From assembly GCA_021201815.1 (NCBI GenBank), contig JAJQEC010000061.1, forward strand, positions 1-64,000: DNA of 64,000 bases. The letters are read 5' to 3'. Source of the stretch: Candidatus Azobacteroides sp. GTDB taxonomy: Bacteria; Bacteroidota; Bacteroidia; Bacteroidales; WRGA01. The notes beneath the pieces were generated by a model, which was given only the letters and a program-made list of their open reading frames with translations, searched no databases and was not told the DNA's origin. Numbering within the stretch: the first letter of the stretch is position 1; the number at the start of each line of letters is the position of its first letter. Positions 3,943-10,602 of the stretch are shown piece by piece. The translations under genes were made by a program, and so were the position numbers.

Positions 3943-5493
3943 ATGAAGAAATACCTAACATTTTCAGCTATTGCCCTTTTAAGTGCCAGCCTTTCCGGTC
4001 AGATCATAGAAGAGATGGATGCGCTGAAATATTCCCGTAGCCAGATTATGGGAAGTGCACGTTATATGAGTATGGCTGGAGCTTTTACCTCATTGGGAGG
4101 GGAAGTCTCCAGTATTAATCAGAATCCGGCCGGCATTGCCGTATTTCCCAAAAGTGAAATTTCCGGTACGCTCAATTTACGATTTCTCAATACCAAAGTC
4201 AATCAGAACGGGAGTACCAACAGTGAAGATCTGACAAAGTTCTCTTTGGATAATATCGGATATGTGGGTGCTGTAAATCTTAAAAATAGCGGAAGCGGAA
4301 TCATGAACTGGAATTTTGGTTTTGTTTATAACAGGACTTATTCCTTTGACAGGAATTATTATGGCCAGGGAAATACCAGTGGCTATAGTTCGTTACCTGA
4401 TTATATCGCCCGGAAGACCTCCACTTTCCGTCCTCCTATTTATGAAGATGAGTTCGGATATGGTTCGGATATTCCCTGGTTATCCGTCTTGGGGTATGAT
4501 GCTTCTCTAATATCTGCTATTGATGGCGGACCTTCTTATATAAATAATTTTAATGACCGTTTTACGGCTTCTTCTCTTAAAATGGTCGAAAGAGGACATG
4601 TCGATGAATATAATTTTGCCCTGGGATTTAATTATTCTCATTTATTATATGTCGGATTAAATGTGGGAATTACCGATATGGTGTATGACCAGAGCTCTTA
4701 TTACAATGAAGTATTTACAGGGACAGAAGGTTCGGATGGTTATGAACTGATTAATCACAGGAGCCTGGACGGTTCCGGAGTGAACGTAAAAATAGGAGCG
4801 ATTATACGACCTACGTATGCTTGGAGATTAGGAATTGCTTATCATTCTCCTACTTTCTATAATATGTCAACTTCTTATTACGGGGAAGTACGGAACTACA
4901 ATCCGGATTATGCTAACTCCGGTACCATTGGCTATGAACCCGGAGAATATTATCCGAGAACGGATTTTGACCTGCGCACTCCCCAGAAGCTTTTAGTAGG
5001 AACTTCTTTTATCGGAGATTACGGATTGGTCAGCGTCGATTATGAATATTGTGATTACTCCTCTATAAAAATAAAAGAAGACGGATTTAATGTCACACCT
5101 CCTTTGGATGAAACCCTCAGAGGTACGCATACCATTAAAATAGGAGGGGAGTATTTTATTAACAACAGTTTTTCTTTAAGAGCCGGATATGCGCATATTA
5201 CCAGCCCGGTAAAAAAAGAAGTACTGGACGGTGGGCTGGAAGTTTTTACAAGCGGAACTGTGCCTCATTATACGCTGGATAAAGGACAAAACTATTTTTC
5301 TCTTGGATTCGGATATCGATATAAAAGTGCATTTGTAGATATGGCGTATGTTCTGAATAGCTACAAAGAGGACCTGTATGCCTTTTCTCCGGTATTCGAT
5401 TCTACATCCGGTCAACAGGTAATTATGCCGGTTGTGTCTAAACTGACAAACAACCGGAGTAATATATTGTTGACATTTGGTGTGCAATTTTAA
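3943..5493 (+). CDS. OmpP1/FadL-family outer membrane transport protein
   Basis: This 516-residue protein has a signal peptide (residues 1-19) and the N-terminal hatch-like segment typical of the OmpP1/FadL/TodX family: ARYMSMAGAFTSLGGEVSSI followed by NQNPAGIAVF. About 14 amphipathic beta strands follow, and the last strand ends in the aromatic residue of FGVQF, as outer-membrane barrels usually do. Family members carry hydrophobic substrates across the outer membrane. In Bacteroidales such genes are often labelled hemin receptor without direct proof, so the substrate here is unknown. A FadL-like gene just before the aromatic operon is an order I associate with this group, but they are separate transcription units. 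Confidence 0.85.
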   Translation: MKKYLTFSAIALLSASLSGQIIEEMDALKYSRSQIMGSARYMSMAGAFTSLGGEVSSINQNPAGIAVFPKSEISGTLNLRFLNTKVNQNGSTNSEDLTKFSLDNIGYVGAVNLKNSGSGIMNWNFGFVYNRTYSFDRNYYGQGNTSGYSSLPDYIARKTSTFRPPIYEDEFGYGSDIPWLSVLGYDASLISAIDGGPSYINNFNDRFTASSLKMVERGHVDEYNFALGFNYSHLLYVGLNVGITDMVYDQSSYYNEVFTGTEGSDGYELINHRSLDGSGVNVKIGAIIRPTYAWRLGIAYHSPTFYNMSTSYYGEVRNYNPDYANSGTIGYEPGEYYPRTDFDLRTPQKLLVGTSFIGDYGLVSVDYEYCDYSSIKIKEDGFNVTPPLDETLRGTHTIKIGGEYFINNSFSLRAGYAHITSPVKKEVLDGGLEVFTSGTVPHYTLDKGQNYFSLGFGYRYKSAFVDMAYVLNSYKEDLYAFSPVFDSTSGQQVIMPVVSKLTNNRSNILLTFGVQF

Positions 5494-5513
5494 AAAATAA
5501 ATATAAAATTGCT

Positions 5514-5542
5514 TTGAGAATAAAAAAAAGATATTACTTTTG
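5514..5542 (+). promoter_or_regulatory. Promoter of the phe/tyr operon
   Basis: TTG at 5514-5516 (-33 box) and TACTTTTG at 5535-5542 (-7 box, consensus TAnnTTTG) are separated by 18 bases. Transcription would start near 5549, about 20 bases before the leader peptide start codon. Confidence 0.7.
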
Positions 5543-5569
5543 CACCCATAATAACTGAGACAAGCAGTC

Positions 5570-5647
5570 ATGAATCATTTTTCGTTTACATATTTTTATT
5601 TTTACTTTTACTTTAGCAACAAAGTGAAACGGGATTTTAATGTGTAA
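5570..5647 (+). CDS. Phe/Tyr-rich leader peptide of the pheA operon (25 aa)
   Basis: An ATG at 5570 opens a 25-codon frame ending at TAA 5645-5647. Seven of the 25 codons are Phe and four are Tyr. Residues 7-15 read TYFYFYFYF, giving eight aromatic codons in a row (5591-5614). It lies between the operon promoter and an intrinsic terminator, directly ahead of pheA. This is the arrangement of a transcription-attenuation leader such as the E. coli pheA leader peptide. Phe and Tyr codons together match an operon that makes both amino acids. It is too short to be found by ordinary gene calling. Confidence 0.8.
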   Translation: MNHFSFTYFYFYFYFSNKVKRDFNV

Positions 5648-5681
5648 ACAGAATACATATAAGAAATATGAAGAATCCCGT
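5629..5681 (+). promoter_or_regulatory. Attenuator antiterminator stem
   Basis: Bases 5629-5638 (ACGGGATTTT, inside the last codons of the leader peptide) can pair with 5672-5681 (AGAATCCCGT) in a 10-bp stem with one G-U pair. The right arm overlaps the left arm of the terminator hairpin, so the two structures exclude each other. A ribosome stalled in the aromatic run (up to 5614) would leave this stem free to form. A ribosome at the stop codon would cover its left arm. Confidence 0.7.
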
Positions 5682-5702
5682 CAATAATGGCGGGATTTTT
5701 TT
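5674..5702 (+). terminator. Attenuator terminator ahead of pheA
   Basis: AATCCCGTCA (5674-5683) pairs with TGGCGGGATT (5688-5697) in a 10-bp stem with one G-U pair and loop ATAA, and a run of seven T ends at 5702. It lies 18 bases before the pheA start codon, so it can only act as a conditional terminator. Confidence 0.82.
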
Positions 5703-5720
5703 GTTTTAATAATCAAAATA

Positions 5721-6566
5721 ATGAAAAAAGTAGCTATTCAGGGAATTGCAGGGTCCTATCACGAGATTGTCGCCAGAAGGTATTTTGACGAAGAGGAAGT
5801 GGAGATTATTGATTGTAAAACATTCCGTGATGTTTTTCAAACACTGGGAAAAGATGATGCAGAAATCGGCATAGTGGCTATAGAAAATACGATTGCCGGA
5901 AGTTTATTGCAGAATTATGAATTACTCAGAGAAAGCAATATGAAGATTTTCGGAGAGTATAAACTCCGTATTTCCCATACTTTCTCCGCTCTTCCGGGAC
6001 AAAGCCTGCAGGATATAAAAGAAGTTATCTCTCACCCGATTGCTATTATGCAATGCCGCAATTTCCTTGAAACTCTTCCTCATGTGAAAGTAATTGAAGG
6101 AGAAGATACAGCCGCAAGTGCCCGGGATATAAGTGTAAATAAAATATTAAATCAGGCCGCTATCTGTTCGGCAGGAGCGGCAGAAGTATACGGGCTGGAA
6201 GTGCTGGAAAGAGGAATTGAAACCAATAAACATAACTTTACCCGTTTTCTCTTCATCGCAGACCAATGGGTAGCAGATGATCTGATTAAGAAAGCGGATA
6301 TAAACAAAGCTTCTTTGGTTTTTTCTGTCCCTCATAATGAAGGAAGCCTTTCTCAGGTCTTATCAGTGCTTTCTTTCTATAGCATGAACCTTACAAAAAT
6401 CCAGTCTTTGCCTATCATCGGACGGGAATGGGAATATATGTTTTATGCGGATCTTACATTTACAGACTATACCCGTTACAAACAATCCGTGGATGCCATT
6501 ATGCCATTGATCAGGGATTTTAAAATACTGGGGGAATACGCAGAGGGAAAACAAAGTTTATCATAA
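5721..6566 (+). CDS. pheA: Prephenate dehydratase
   Basis: This 281-residue enzyme converts prephenate to phenylpyruvate in phenylalanine synthesis. The N-terminal PDT domain (about 1-180) includes the GIAGSYHEIVA start, the IAIENTIAGS substrate segment and the catalytic NFTRF motif near residue 173. A C-terminal ACT domain (about 195-275) should bind phenylalanine. Its usual ESRP motif is replaced by QSLP. The gene lacks a fused chorismate mutase, which is supplied by the DAHP synthase fusion two genes downstream. It is the first gene after the attenuator, so it is probably controlled by Phe/Tyr-tRNA charging as well as ACT feedback. Confidence 0.95.
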   Translation: MKKVAIQGIAGSYHEIVARRYFDEEEVEIIDCKTFRDVFQTLGKDDAEIGIVAIENTIAGSLLQNYELLRESNMKIFGEYKLRISHTFSALPGQSLQDIKEVISHPIAIMQCRNFLETLPHVKVIEGEDTAASARDISVNKILNQAAICSAGAAEVYGLEVLERGIETNKHNFTRFLFIADQWVADDLIKKADINKASLVFSVPHNEGSLSQVLSVLSFYSMNLTKIQSLPIIGREWEYMFYADLTFTDYTRYKQSVDAIMPLIRDFKILGEYAEGKQSLS

Positions 6567-6588: not shown

Positions 6589-7761
6589 ATGTCTATGATT
6601 GAAAATATAAAACCGGCTGTTCGATTAAATCAGGTTTCCGAATATTATTTCTCTAATAAATTAAAGGAAATTGCCCGGATGAATGCGGAGGGAAAAAATG
6701 TTATCAGTCTGGGAGTAGGGAGCCCGGATCTCCCTCCTTCGAAAGCAGCGTTGGATGTAATGTGTGAACAGACGCGAAGGAACGATACACATGGTTATCA
6801 ACCTTATGTCGGTATTCCGGAGCTAAGAAAAGGTTTTGCCGACTGGTATCACAAATGGTATGGGGTTGACTTAAATCCGGATACTGAAATTCAACCGCTT
6901 ATAGGCTCCAAAGAAGGAATTTTACATATTACCTTGGCTTTTATTAATCCCGGAGAAGGGGTATTGGTACCTAATCCCGGATATCCTACCTACAGCTCTT
7001 TGAGTAGTTTATTAGGTGCGGAGCTGAACTATTACAACCTGGAAGAAAAAAACGGATGGTATCCTGATTTTGAAGAACTGGAGAAAAGGGATTTAAGCAA
7101 TATAAAGCTTATGTGGGTGAATTACCCGCACATGCCAACCGGTACACCGGCTACAAAAGAACTGTTTGAAAAGATAGTGGCTTTTGGAAAAAAACATCAT
7201 ATTGTCATTTGCAACGATAATCCGTATAGCTTTATATTAAATGAGCATCCGTTAAGTATATTGAGTGTAGAAGGAGCGAAAGATATTTGTATTGAATTGA
7301 ATTCTCTCAGTAAATCTCATAACATGCCCGGTTGGCGTATCGGTTTGCTCGCTTCTAATCCGACATTTGTCAGCTGGGTGCTCAAAGTAAAAAGCAATAT
7401 TGATTCCGGAATGTTCCGGCCTTTACAGCTTGCTGCTGCCGAAGCCCTGAAAAGTGACAAGGCATGGTATGATAAAATGAATGCTGTATATAAAAGTCGT
7501 CGTAAAGTTGCCGAAGAAATAATGAAAACCCTGGGATGTGAATTTGACCCTGAACAGGTGGGCATGTTTCTGTGGGGTAAAATTCCTTCTTGCTACGAAA
7601 GTAGTAAGGAATTAGCGGATAAAATATTATACGGTGCCAATGTATTTCTTACCCCGGGATTTATTTTTGGCAGTAACGGAGAAAGATATATCCGGATCTC
7701 TCTTTGTTGCAAAGAAGAGAAATTGCAGGAAGCATTAGAAAGAATTAAAAATCTTAAATAG
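6589..7761 (+). CDS. PLP-dependent class I/II aminotransferase of aromatic operon
   Basis: This 390-residue fold-type I aminotransferase shows the substrate-side motif LGVGSPDLPPS near residues 40-50, the Asn-Pro-type loop (NYPHMPTGTPA) and the PLP lysine in NSLSKSHNMPGWRIG near residue 243. Placed 22 bases after pheA and before the DAHP synthase, it most likely transaminates phenylpyruvate and 4-hydroxyphenylpyruvate to Phe and Tyr. By sequence it also resembles LL-diaminopimelate and aspartate aminotransferases, so the specificity is inferred from context only. Confidence 0.88.
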   Translation: MSMIENIKPAVRLNQVSEYYFSNKLKEIARMNAEGKNVISLGVGSPDLPPSKAALDVMCEQTRRNDTHGYQPYVGIPELRKGFADWYHKWYGVDLNPDTEIQPLIGSKEGILHITLAFINPGEGVLVPNPGYPTYSSLSSLLGAELNYYNLEEKNGWYPDFEELEKRDLSNIKLMWVNYPHMPTGTPATKELFEKIVAFGKKHHIVICNDNPYSFILNEHPLSILSVEGAKDICIELNSLSKSHNMPGWRIGLLASNPTFVSWVLKVKSNIDSGMFRPLQLAAAEALKSDKAWYDKMNAVYKSRRKVAEEIMKTLGCEFDPEQVGMFLWGKIPSCYESSKELADKILYGANVFLTPGFIFGSNGERYIRISLCCKEEKLQEALERIKNLK

Positions 7762-7784: not shown

Positions 7785-8846
7785 ATGGAATTAGAATCAA
7801 TTTTACTACCCGGCATAGATGATAAACGTCCTTTGGTGATTGCCGGTCCTTGTAGTGCGGAAACAGAAGAGCAGGTAATGAATACGGCCAGGGCATTGGC
7901 TGATAAAGGAGTTAAAATATTCAGAGCAGGGATCTGGAAGCCAAGAACTAAGCCGGGAGGTTTTGAAGGAGTAGGTTCCGAAGGGCTGGGCTGGCTGAGG
8001 AATGTGAAAAAGGAAACGGGAATGTATGTCGCTACGGAAGTGGCTACCGCTAAACATGTATACGAAGCAATGAAATATGGCATCGATATGCTTTGGATCG
8101 GCGCGCGGACTTCTGCAAATCCTTTTGCCGTGCAGGAGCTGGCTGAAGCATTACAGGGGCTGGATATTCCTGTGCTGATAAAAAATCCTGTCAATCCTGA
8201 TCTGGAACTATGGATCGGAGCAATTGAACGTATTTACAATGCGGGTATTAAAAAAATAGGTGTGATTCACCGGGGGTTCAGTTCTTATGACAAAAAGATT
8301 TACCGTAACTTGCCTCAATGGCATATCCCTATTGAGCTTCGCAGACGGATGCCGAATTTACCTATTATCTGCGACCCAAGCCATATCGGTGGAAGAAGAG
8401 AGTTGATTGCTTCTTTATCTCAACAGGCGATGGACCTCAATTTCGATGGACTGATTATCGAATCTCATTGCAATCCGGATGCCGCATGGAGCGATAAAGA
8501 CCAGCAGGTGACACCGGATATCCTGGAATATATCTTAAATTTACTGGTAATCCGTGATACGAACCAGACAACAGAATGTTTATCCGAGCTGCGCAGCCAG
8601 ATTGATGAAATAGATAATCAATTACTCGAAGTACTGGCAAAAAGAATGCGGGTTTCCCGTGAAATAGGTCAATATAAGAAGGAACATAATATGACTGTCT
8701 TACAGACCGGCCGCTATGATGAAATTCTGAAAGACCGTATCGAACAGGCAGAGCAACTGGATATGGGAGGGGATTTTATAAAAACAATTCTGGAAGCCAT
8801 CCATGAAGAATCTGTTCGCCAACAGGTGAAAGTGATCAATCAATAA
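7785..8846 (+). CDS. Bifunctional DAHP synthase / chorismate mutase (type II)
   Basis: This 353-residue fusion opens with a DAHP synthase of the Ibeta type (about 1-255), showing VIAGPCSAET, the KPRTKPGGFEG phosphate-binding segment and CDPSHIGGRRE. An AroQ-type chorismate mutase helical domain follows (about 262-345: ELRSQIDEIDNQLLEVLAKR). It provides the first committed step of the shikimate route and the branch-point conversion of chorismate to prephenate, feeding both pheA and tyrA in the same operon. The mutase domain may also serve as the allosteric sensor of the synthase, as in related fusions. It is 23 bases from the previous gene. Confidence 0.94.
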   Translation: MELESILLPGIDDKRPLVIAGPCSAETEEQVMNTARALADKGVKIFRAGIWKPRTKPGGFEGVGSEGLGWLRNVKKETGMYVATEVATAKHVYEAMKYGIDMLWIGARTSANPFAVQELAEALQGLDIPVLIKNPVNPDLELWIGAIERIYNAGIKKIGVIHRGFSSYDKKIYRNLPQWHIPIELRRRMPNLPIICDPSHIGGRRELIASLSQQAMDLNFDGLIIESHCNPDAAWSDKDQQVTPDILEYILNLLVIRDTNQTTECLSELRSQIDEIDNQLLEVLAKRMRVSREIGQYKKEHNMTVLQTGRYDEILKDRIEQAEQLDMGGDFIKTILEAIHEESVRQQVKVINQ

Positions 8847-8857
8847 GCAACAGAGAA

Positions 8858-9631
8858 ATGAAAATTCTTATTTTAGGAGCAGGTAAAATGGGCGTCTTTC
8901 TGACAGACGTCCTTTGCTTTAATCATGAAGTAGCCTTATATGATGTAGATCCGAAACGGTTACGTTTTGTTTTTAACACGTATAGGATGACTGACATCAG
9001 CGAGGTGGCTGAATTTAAACCGGATCTGGTTATTAATGCCGTAACCGTGAAATATACGATCGATGCATTTAAACAGGTAATTCCTTATCTCGATTCCAAT
9101 TGCATTATCTCTGATATTGCTTCTGTCAAGACGGGATTAAAGGAGTTCTATGAATCGACCGGTATGCGGTACGTTTCATCCCACCCTATGTTTGGCCCTA
9201 CATTTGCTAATCTCAGCAATTTGTCATCTGAAAGTGCCATTATTATTTCTGAATCCGATCATCTGGGGAAAGTATTCTTTAAAGATCTTTACGGAACCTT
9301 AAAACTGAATATTTTCGAATATTCTTTTGATGAACATGATGAAACAATTGCTTATTCCCTTTCTATTCCTTTTGCTTCTACCTTGGTTTTTGCTTCTGTA
9401 ATGAAGCATCAGGACGCTCCGGGAACTACTTTCAAAAAACATATGGATATTGCAAGGGGGCTATTGTTAGAAGATGATTTCCTTTTGACAGAAATATTGT
9501 TCAATCCGCATACACAGGAACAGGTTGAAAAAATAAGAAAGCAACTGGGAGCATTACTGAATATTGTAAAGGAAAAAGATTCCGATGGAATGCAGAAATT
9601 TCTTACGGAAGTCCGGAAGAATATTGAGTAA
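8858..9631 (+). CDS. tyrA: Prephenate dehydrogenase
   Basis: This 257-residue protein has an N-terminal Rossmann nucleotide-binding motif (LGAGKMG, residues 6-12) and the catalytic-region motif SHPMFGPT near residue 108. It has a helical C-terminal dimerisation domain and no ACT domain. It oxidises prephenate to 4-hydroxyphenylpyruvate for tyrosine synthesis. It is the last gene of the operon, 11 bases after the DAHP synthase fusion. A 132-bp repeat with two hairpins starts 17 bases after its stop and may serve as the operon end. Confidence 0.93.
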   Translation: MKILILGAGKMGVFLTDVLCFNHEVALYDVDPKRLRFVFNTYRMTDISEVAEFKPDLVINAVTVKYTIDAFKQVIPYLDSNCIISDIASVKTGLKEFYESTGMRYVSSHPMFGPTFANLSNLSSESAIIISESDHLGKVFFKDLYGTLKLNIFEYSFDEHDETIAYSLSIPFASTLVFASVMKHQDAPGTTFKKHMDIARGLLLEDDFLLTEILFNPHTQEQVEKIRKQLGALLNIVKEKDSDGMQKFLTEVRKNIE

Positions 9632-9648: not shown

Positions 9649-9780
9649 TATCCAAAAACTTCACCTCTTTGATTTTCCTTTAAATTTGATAAGATACCAG
9701 ACAACTCTTCCCTTCTTTGAAGGGAAGTACCTTTTGACTACGTCAAAAGGGGTAGGGTTTACCCACGATAAAATACCCGG
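9649..9780 (+). repeat. 132-bp interspersed repeat, copy A
   Basis: This block and 10471-10602 are both 132 bp and in the same orientation. They are nearly identical over the central part and diverge in the flanks. The core carries two adjacent hairpins: CTTCCCTTC/GAAGGGAAG, then CCTTTTGAC/GTCAAAAGG with loop TAC, followed by GGTAGGGTTT. It looks like a REP- or MITE-type extragenic element. The tyrA-proximal hairpins could also end transcription, although no T-run follows. Confidence 0.8.
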
Positions 9781-10470: not shown

Positions 10471-10602
10471 TATCCAAAAACTTCCCATTTTTTATTTTCC
10501 GGTAAACTTAATGAAATACCAGACAACTCTTCCCTTCGGAGAAGGGAAGTACCTTTTGACTACGTCAAAAGGGGTAGGGTTTGATACAAGAAAATAACCC
10601 GG
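10471..10602 (+). repeat. 132-bp interspersed repeat, copy B
   Basis: This is the second copy of the element at 9649-9780, in the same orientation, starting one base after the stop codon of the symE-like gene. Both hairpins are conserved. The loop of the first differs (CGGA in place of CTTT around the turn) while the stem stays intact, which suggests selection on structure. Confidence 0.8.

Follow-up and report, generated by a model that had tools for sequence, protein, structure and literature searches.

A predicted ribosome-mediated Phe/Tyr attenuator upstream of pheA, conserved in Bacteroidia and occasionally found in tandem

The window (the whole stretch of 64,000 nucleotides analysed here) carries on its plus strand a regulatory region consisting of a promoter, a leader ORF and a T-tailed hairpin, followed from position 5721 by pheA. 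The pheA gene (5721 to 6566) encodes a prephenate dehydratase (Pfam PF00800, E-value = 6.5e-57) and would be the first gene under control. Three further plus-strand genes come after it: a class I/II aminotransferase (6589 to 7761, PF00155), starting 22 nt after pheA, a DAHP synthase-chorismate mutase fusion (7785 to 8846, PF00793 and PF01817), and the prephenate dehydrogenase tyrA (8858 to 9631, PF02153), starting 11 nt after the preceding gene. We presume that the four genes belong to the same operon. Since the aminotransferase, DAHP synthase-chorismate mutase and prephenate dehydrogenase genes tightly follow pheA, this presumed operon should yield both Phe and Tyr. Such a gene content agrees with an earlier note on this DNA, in which the mixed Phe and Tyr codons of the leader were taken to fit an operon making both amino acids. 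Upstream, an outer-membrane protein gene on the same strand (3943 to 5493) ends 177 nt before the terminator hairpin. Two near-identical hairpins (CTTCCCTTC...GAAGGGAAG, then TACCTTTTGA) were seen downstream of the operon at 9707 to 9727 and 10529 to 10549, perhaps representing a dispersed repeat. An Rfam scan of the window matched only tRNA and the S4-Bacteroidia ribosomal protein leader (RF03139, 52145 to 52178, barely over the threshold); no amino-acid leader family (Phe_leader or others) reached its gathering score, and at the pheA leader itself no riboswitch, T-box or RF01692 scored above threshold.

A Bacteroides-type promoter (TTTG/TAnnTTTG) can be read at 5513 to 5542 on the plus strand, with the boxes TTTG (5513 to 5516) and TACTTTTG (5535 to 5542) separated by an 18-nt spacer; the transcription start would lie near 5549. 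The leader ORF (5570 to 5647) encodes the peptide MNHFSFTYFYFYFYFSNKVKRDFNV in 25 codons followed by TAA, and lacks a Shine-Dalgarno site. Its codons 8 to 15 (5591 to 5614) are an uninterrupted (Tyr-Phe)x4 run, and its stop codon (5645 to 5647) lies 73 nt 5' of pheA. The 5' arm of the antiterminator (arm A, ACGGGATTTT, 5629 to 5638) is located within the leader ORF and pairs with arm B (AGAATCCCGT, 5672 to 5681), which is shared, being at once the 3' arm of the antiterminator and a part of the 5' arm of the terminator. The promoter, the leader, its eight aromatic codons and the antiterminator are all located as the earlier note had them, and the positions that it gave for them are right to the base. 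The terminator sharing the antiterminator arm is also present, but its stem is longer than the 5674 to 5697 given there: the intrinsic terminator (5670 to 5701) has 14 base pairs (5670 to 5683 with 5688 to 5701), a 4-nt loop (5684 to 5687) and a T tail. Its folding energy is -18.7 kcal/mol (5648 to 5705), and it is the sole terminator-like site in the 361-nt region from 5400 to 5760, where 0.1 would be expected.

RNA folding also reveals a further hairpin (5584 to 5649), in which leader codons pair with the region holding arm A. On the folding model this is the 1:2 protector that completes a classic four-segment attenuator. The classic geometry proposed earlier stands as regards spacing and ribosome-masked folding (see below), but it had missed this fourth segment. 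The leader RNA folds with a z-score of -5.3. Among 148 homologous elements, arm A is paired to upstream codons in 138 of the predicted folds, and the leader folds more favourably onto the A region than onto shuffled A regions (mean z-score of -2.2). Outside the aromatic run, the leader peptides conserve residues such as FTY and SN(K/E)VKR, a conservation probably explained by the protector hairpin, in which TTTACATAY pairs with GTATGTAAA.

We collected PheA relatives and their upstream DNA from one-per-species genome sets, which gave a dereplicated set of 171 loci, each with 250 nt or more of upstream sequence. An ATG-to-stop ORF with at least six Phe/Tyr codons out of eight was found in 132 of these (0.6% in shuffled sequences); 115 loci reached at least seven of eight (shuffles 0.1%), and 70 all eight (shuffles 0%). 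Many of the leaderless pheA loci come from genomes of the same phylum but of another class, and others, of which we noted five examples, lie one codon below the threshold. Other families of the same class have the aromatic leader as well (most of 27 loci), and the element is also present at loci of Bacteroides and Phocaeicola. The conservation of the leader frame in relatives, which the earlier note had proposed as a check, thus extends across Bacteroidales and to the wider Bacteroidia. A hairpin with a U tail lies between leader and pheA in 131 of the 132 leader-bearing representatives. In a control using the upstream regions of other genes, 14 of 670 reached seven of eight aromatic codons, and two further matches were obtained at six of eight; judging by their positions, all of the 14 sit at alternative pheA starts and hence are not independent. 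For the window, the 240 nt 5' of pheA were dinucleotide-shuffled 5000 times without once producing an ATG-to-stop ORF with even seven of eight aromatic codons, compared with eight of eight in the actual leader. A pattern search of the genome, however, returned 50 seven-codon aromatic runs against 37 in the reversed control. Such a run by itself is therefore not rare in this AT-rich genome, and conservation is the decisive evidence.

Phe and Tyr both occur in 147 of the 148 homologous leaders, and synonymous codons are freely used (TTT 640, TTC 205, TAT 270, TAC 292). A TAnnTTTG motif is found within 60 nt 5' of the leader ATG in 105 elements, compared with 5.6 expected from shuffles. The sequence 5' of the ATG is A-rich and includes an SD-like site in only four leaders, in line with the earlier remark that translation in this phylum starts mostly without Shine-Dalgarno pairing.

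The three arms covary in relatives, as had been anticipated for the CGGGATT/AATCCCG/CGGGATT triplet. In the 148 elements, the mean score for pairing of arm A with its own arm B is 24.0, against 16.4 ± 0.3 (sd) when the arms are permuted; the highest value in 5000 permutations was 17.6. The A arm of the window ranks only 19th of 148 against the window's B arm, since many relatives share the CGGGATT core. Compensatory pairs are frequent in an alignment of 90 relatives: one A:B position is G-C in 58, A-T in 13, C-G in 3 and T-A in 2 of them, and another is G-C in 53 and A-T in 24. In the same alignment the B:C pairs of the terminator are 97% intact. Arm A starts a median of 11 nt after the last aromatic codon, the middle half of the 148 elements falling between 9 and 12 nt. 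A ribosome extends about this far downstream of its A-site codon, so that the spacing is as an attenuation model predicts.

We consider it very probable, from sequence comparison and modelled folding, that the element is a ribosome-mediated transcription attenuator sensing charged tRNA-Phe and tRNA-Tyr and controlling the operon of pheA, aminotransferase, DAHP synthase/chorismate mutase and tyrA. Transcription would begin near 5549, and a ribosome would initiate on the SD-less leader. When Phe or Tyr is short, the ribosome would stall in codons 8 to 15 and open the 5584 to 5649 hairpin, leaving arm A free to pair with arm B once B has been made; this pairing would block the terminator and let the polymerase continue into pheA. 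When both amino acids are plentiful, the ribosome would reach the stop codon and cover arm A, B would pair with the 3' arm of the terminator, and transcription would end near 5701. With no ribosome loaded, the protector hairpin would compete for arm A and favour termination. We modelled these states by folding a nascent RNA ending at 5685 with the ribosome masked, assuming that it covers the RNA from 18 nt upstream of the A-site codon to 11 nt downstream of it. The computed A:B pairing probability was 1.00 with the ribosome on codon 8, 11 or 15, 0.53 without a ribosome, and 0.00 with the ribosome on the stop codon. For the complete transcript, the terminator (-17.8 kcal/mol) is favoured over the antiterminator (-14.0 kcal/mol) and wins in every modelled state; we thus infer that the switch must act during transcription. 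The decision would fall after B has emerged and before the terminator 3' arm does, as in classic systems, and the model needs a close coupling of transcription and translation in the organism.

It might be argued that the hairpin does no more than terminate the outer-membrane protein gene upstream, the aromatic ORF having arisen by chance from a pyrimidine tract. That gene does lie on the same strand and ends close by, and aromatic runs of seven codons are not rare in the genome. Yet the leader and its terminator recur together at pheA loci across Bacteroidia, the aromatic frame is far more frequent there than in shuffled sequences, a promoter motif directly precedes the leader in most of the homologous elements, and the three arms covary, which makes this explanation extremely improbable. 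A sensor other than the ribosome (a riboswitch, a T-box or an RNA-binding protein), with the ORF incidental, would also be compatible with mutually exclusive hairpins, as these fit a ligand-switched terminator equally. We hold this to be just as remote, given the lack of a riboswitch or T-box match at threshold in the Rfam scan of the locus, the fact that it is the aromatic reading frame that is conserved while synonymous codons vary freely, and the way in which leader codons track the pathway in other operons (Trp for trp, Ile/Leu/Val for ilvD, Thr for thrA, His for hisG; see below). The riboswitch, T-box and plain-terminator readings were accordingly rejected, on the absence of an Rfam match, the conserved aromatic frame and the covarying arms.

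The leader could instead act mainly on translation or RNA stability, by reinitiation or by a stall-dependent exposure of the pheA start, rather than on termination. Initiation without SD pairing makes reinitiation thinkable, and reinitiation after short leaders has been proposed for Bacteroidetes (PMC4833913), but the leader stop codon is 73 nt away from pheA, whereas the reinitiation peak in this phylum is at 11 to 14 nt (PMC4833913). Together with the U-tailed hairpin that separates nearly every leader from pheA, and with an antiterminator arm that pairs with a terminator arm, this leaves a control at the translation level very unlikely. Transcription attenuation remains the preferred reading, and on comparative grounds the pheA element is best described as a ribosome-mediated Phe/Tyr attenuator conserved across Bacteroidia.

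With the proteobacterial attenuators of pheA, trp and his (e.g. E. coli pheL-pheA), the window element shares a leader peptide in which the end-product amino acids abound, three hairpins (protector, antiterminator and terminator), and the position of the terminator just 5' of the structural gene. It differs from them in having no Rfam match, in its mixed Tyr/Phe run before a joint Phe/Tyr operon, in its SD-less leader and in its Bacteroides-type promoter. A survey by Lopatovskaya et al. (2010; Mol Biol 44:128) may already include attenuators of Bacteroidetes. Before their own finding of leader-peptide systems in Firmicutes, Naville and Gautheret (2010) stated that none were known beyond Proteobacteria and Actinobacteria (PMC2965389). 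The suggestion of the earlier note that such elements are rare in Bacteroidetes was nevertheless too strong, since the phylum has precedents in Flavobacterium psychrophilum (PMC9723704) and in the Bacteroid-trp family (RF01692). The F. psychrophilum transcriptome study reports strong indications that amino-acid operons are attenuated through leader peptides, as well as conserved structured elements 5' of pheA and hisG in Flavobacteriaceae, the pheA one being without an Rfam match (PMC9723704). That pheA element is alike in that other class-level relatives in our data carry the same aromatic leader; the main text of that study, as far as it could be consulted, describes no Phe/Tyr leader and no extension to Bacteroidales (PMC9723704). 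Bacteroid-trp shares the phylum and the architecture of the window element but has Trp instead of Phe/Tyr and a different sequence; it is tabulated by Weinberg et al. (2010) as cis-regulatory and not a switch (PMC2864571). A transcript map of B. thetaiotaomicron also noted short ORFs in 5' UTRs reminiscent of leader peptides (PMC7366714). The element is thus real, widespread and ordinary in its mechanism: its kind is known and its phylum has precedents, and comparative evidence makes the Phe/Tyr element itself, which has no Rfam family, a well-supported prediction. With strong comparative support, it would extend the classic attenuation logic to Phe/Tyr synthesis in a lineage that is dominant in the gut and starts translation without SD pairing. 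Because attenuation works only if a ribosome closely follows the polymerase, the conserved leaders make transcription-translation coupling in Bacteroides directly testable.

The window locus has a single attenuator. At 21 other loci, corresponding to 17 of the 171 dereplicated ones (about 10%) and coming from many families, two aromatic leaders lie in series within 420 nt 5' of pheA (e.g. L013, L017, L023, L080, L089, L102, L149, L184, L192). Nearly every one of these leaders is accompanied by an antiterminator and a terminator of its own; the first hairpin of L008 has no good U tract. A promoter motif precedes the first leader in 17 of the 21 loci and the second in none, and the second leader usually starts 14 to 30 nt after the first terminator; the two attenuators are therefore likely, from this arrangement, to act serially on one transcript. 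A YFM-like motif is often seen at the end of the second leader. In a literature search for published tandem ribosome attenuators we found only the Salmonella mgtCBR operon (PMC3641672), where two leader-ORF attenuators likewise lie in series. In mgtCBR, two different signals are sensed, ATP and proline (PMC3641672), whereas the tandem pheA loci repeat the Phe/Tyr signal. The tandem pair is the most novel by-product of this analysis, the interest of which lies in this variant and in the breadth of the attenuator within an SD-less lineage.

Leaders of the same design with matching codons precede the trp genes, ilvD and a thrA-like gene in this genome. The trp leader contains WWW (MSKQLVNTFWWWCLQLKQVVRS), is followed by an attenuator terminator, and falls within RF01692 (L142:1520-1660; G000:C73:59405-59537); in this copy one terminator arm is repeated in the distal part of the leader. 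In all ten RF01692 matches that we examined, a short ORF containing WW or WWW precedes a U-tailed hairpin. The analysis thereby suggests a function for this family as well as for a large number of short ORFs that lack annotation. The ilvD leader of this genome is MISNSLHILLLIVVLLVTKRKEKGCAVA, followed by the terminator hairpin AAAGCCTTTCTCA, and leaders rich in Ile/Leu/Val are found 5' of ilvD at 13 loci, this one included. Leaders with a His run precede hisG in most of 30 Bacteroidales loci (e.g. MRFYSRHRVHHHHHHLSG); a his leader was sought in this genome and not found. It seems rather more probable than otherwise that in Bacteroidia most amino-acid operons (those for phe/tyr, trp, ilv, thr and his) are controlled through an old, SD-independent, ribosome-mediated attenuation, the pheA leader having been doubled in several families into two serial attenuators for the same amino acids behind one promoter, with a steeper response. 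Two hisG loci appear to have two His leaders in tandem. The thrA-like gene of this genome is preceded by the leader MQINPKYLFSYTTTTTPWGV, and at four such loci, including this one, a conserved PWG (PWGV) was noticed after the Thr run.
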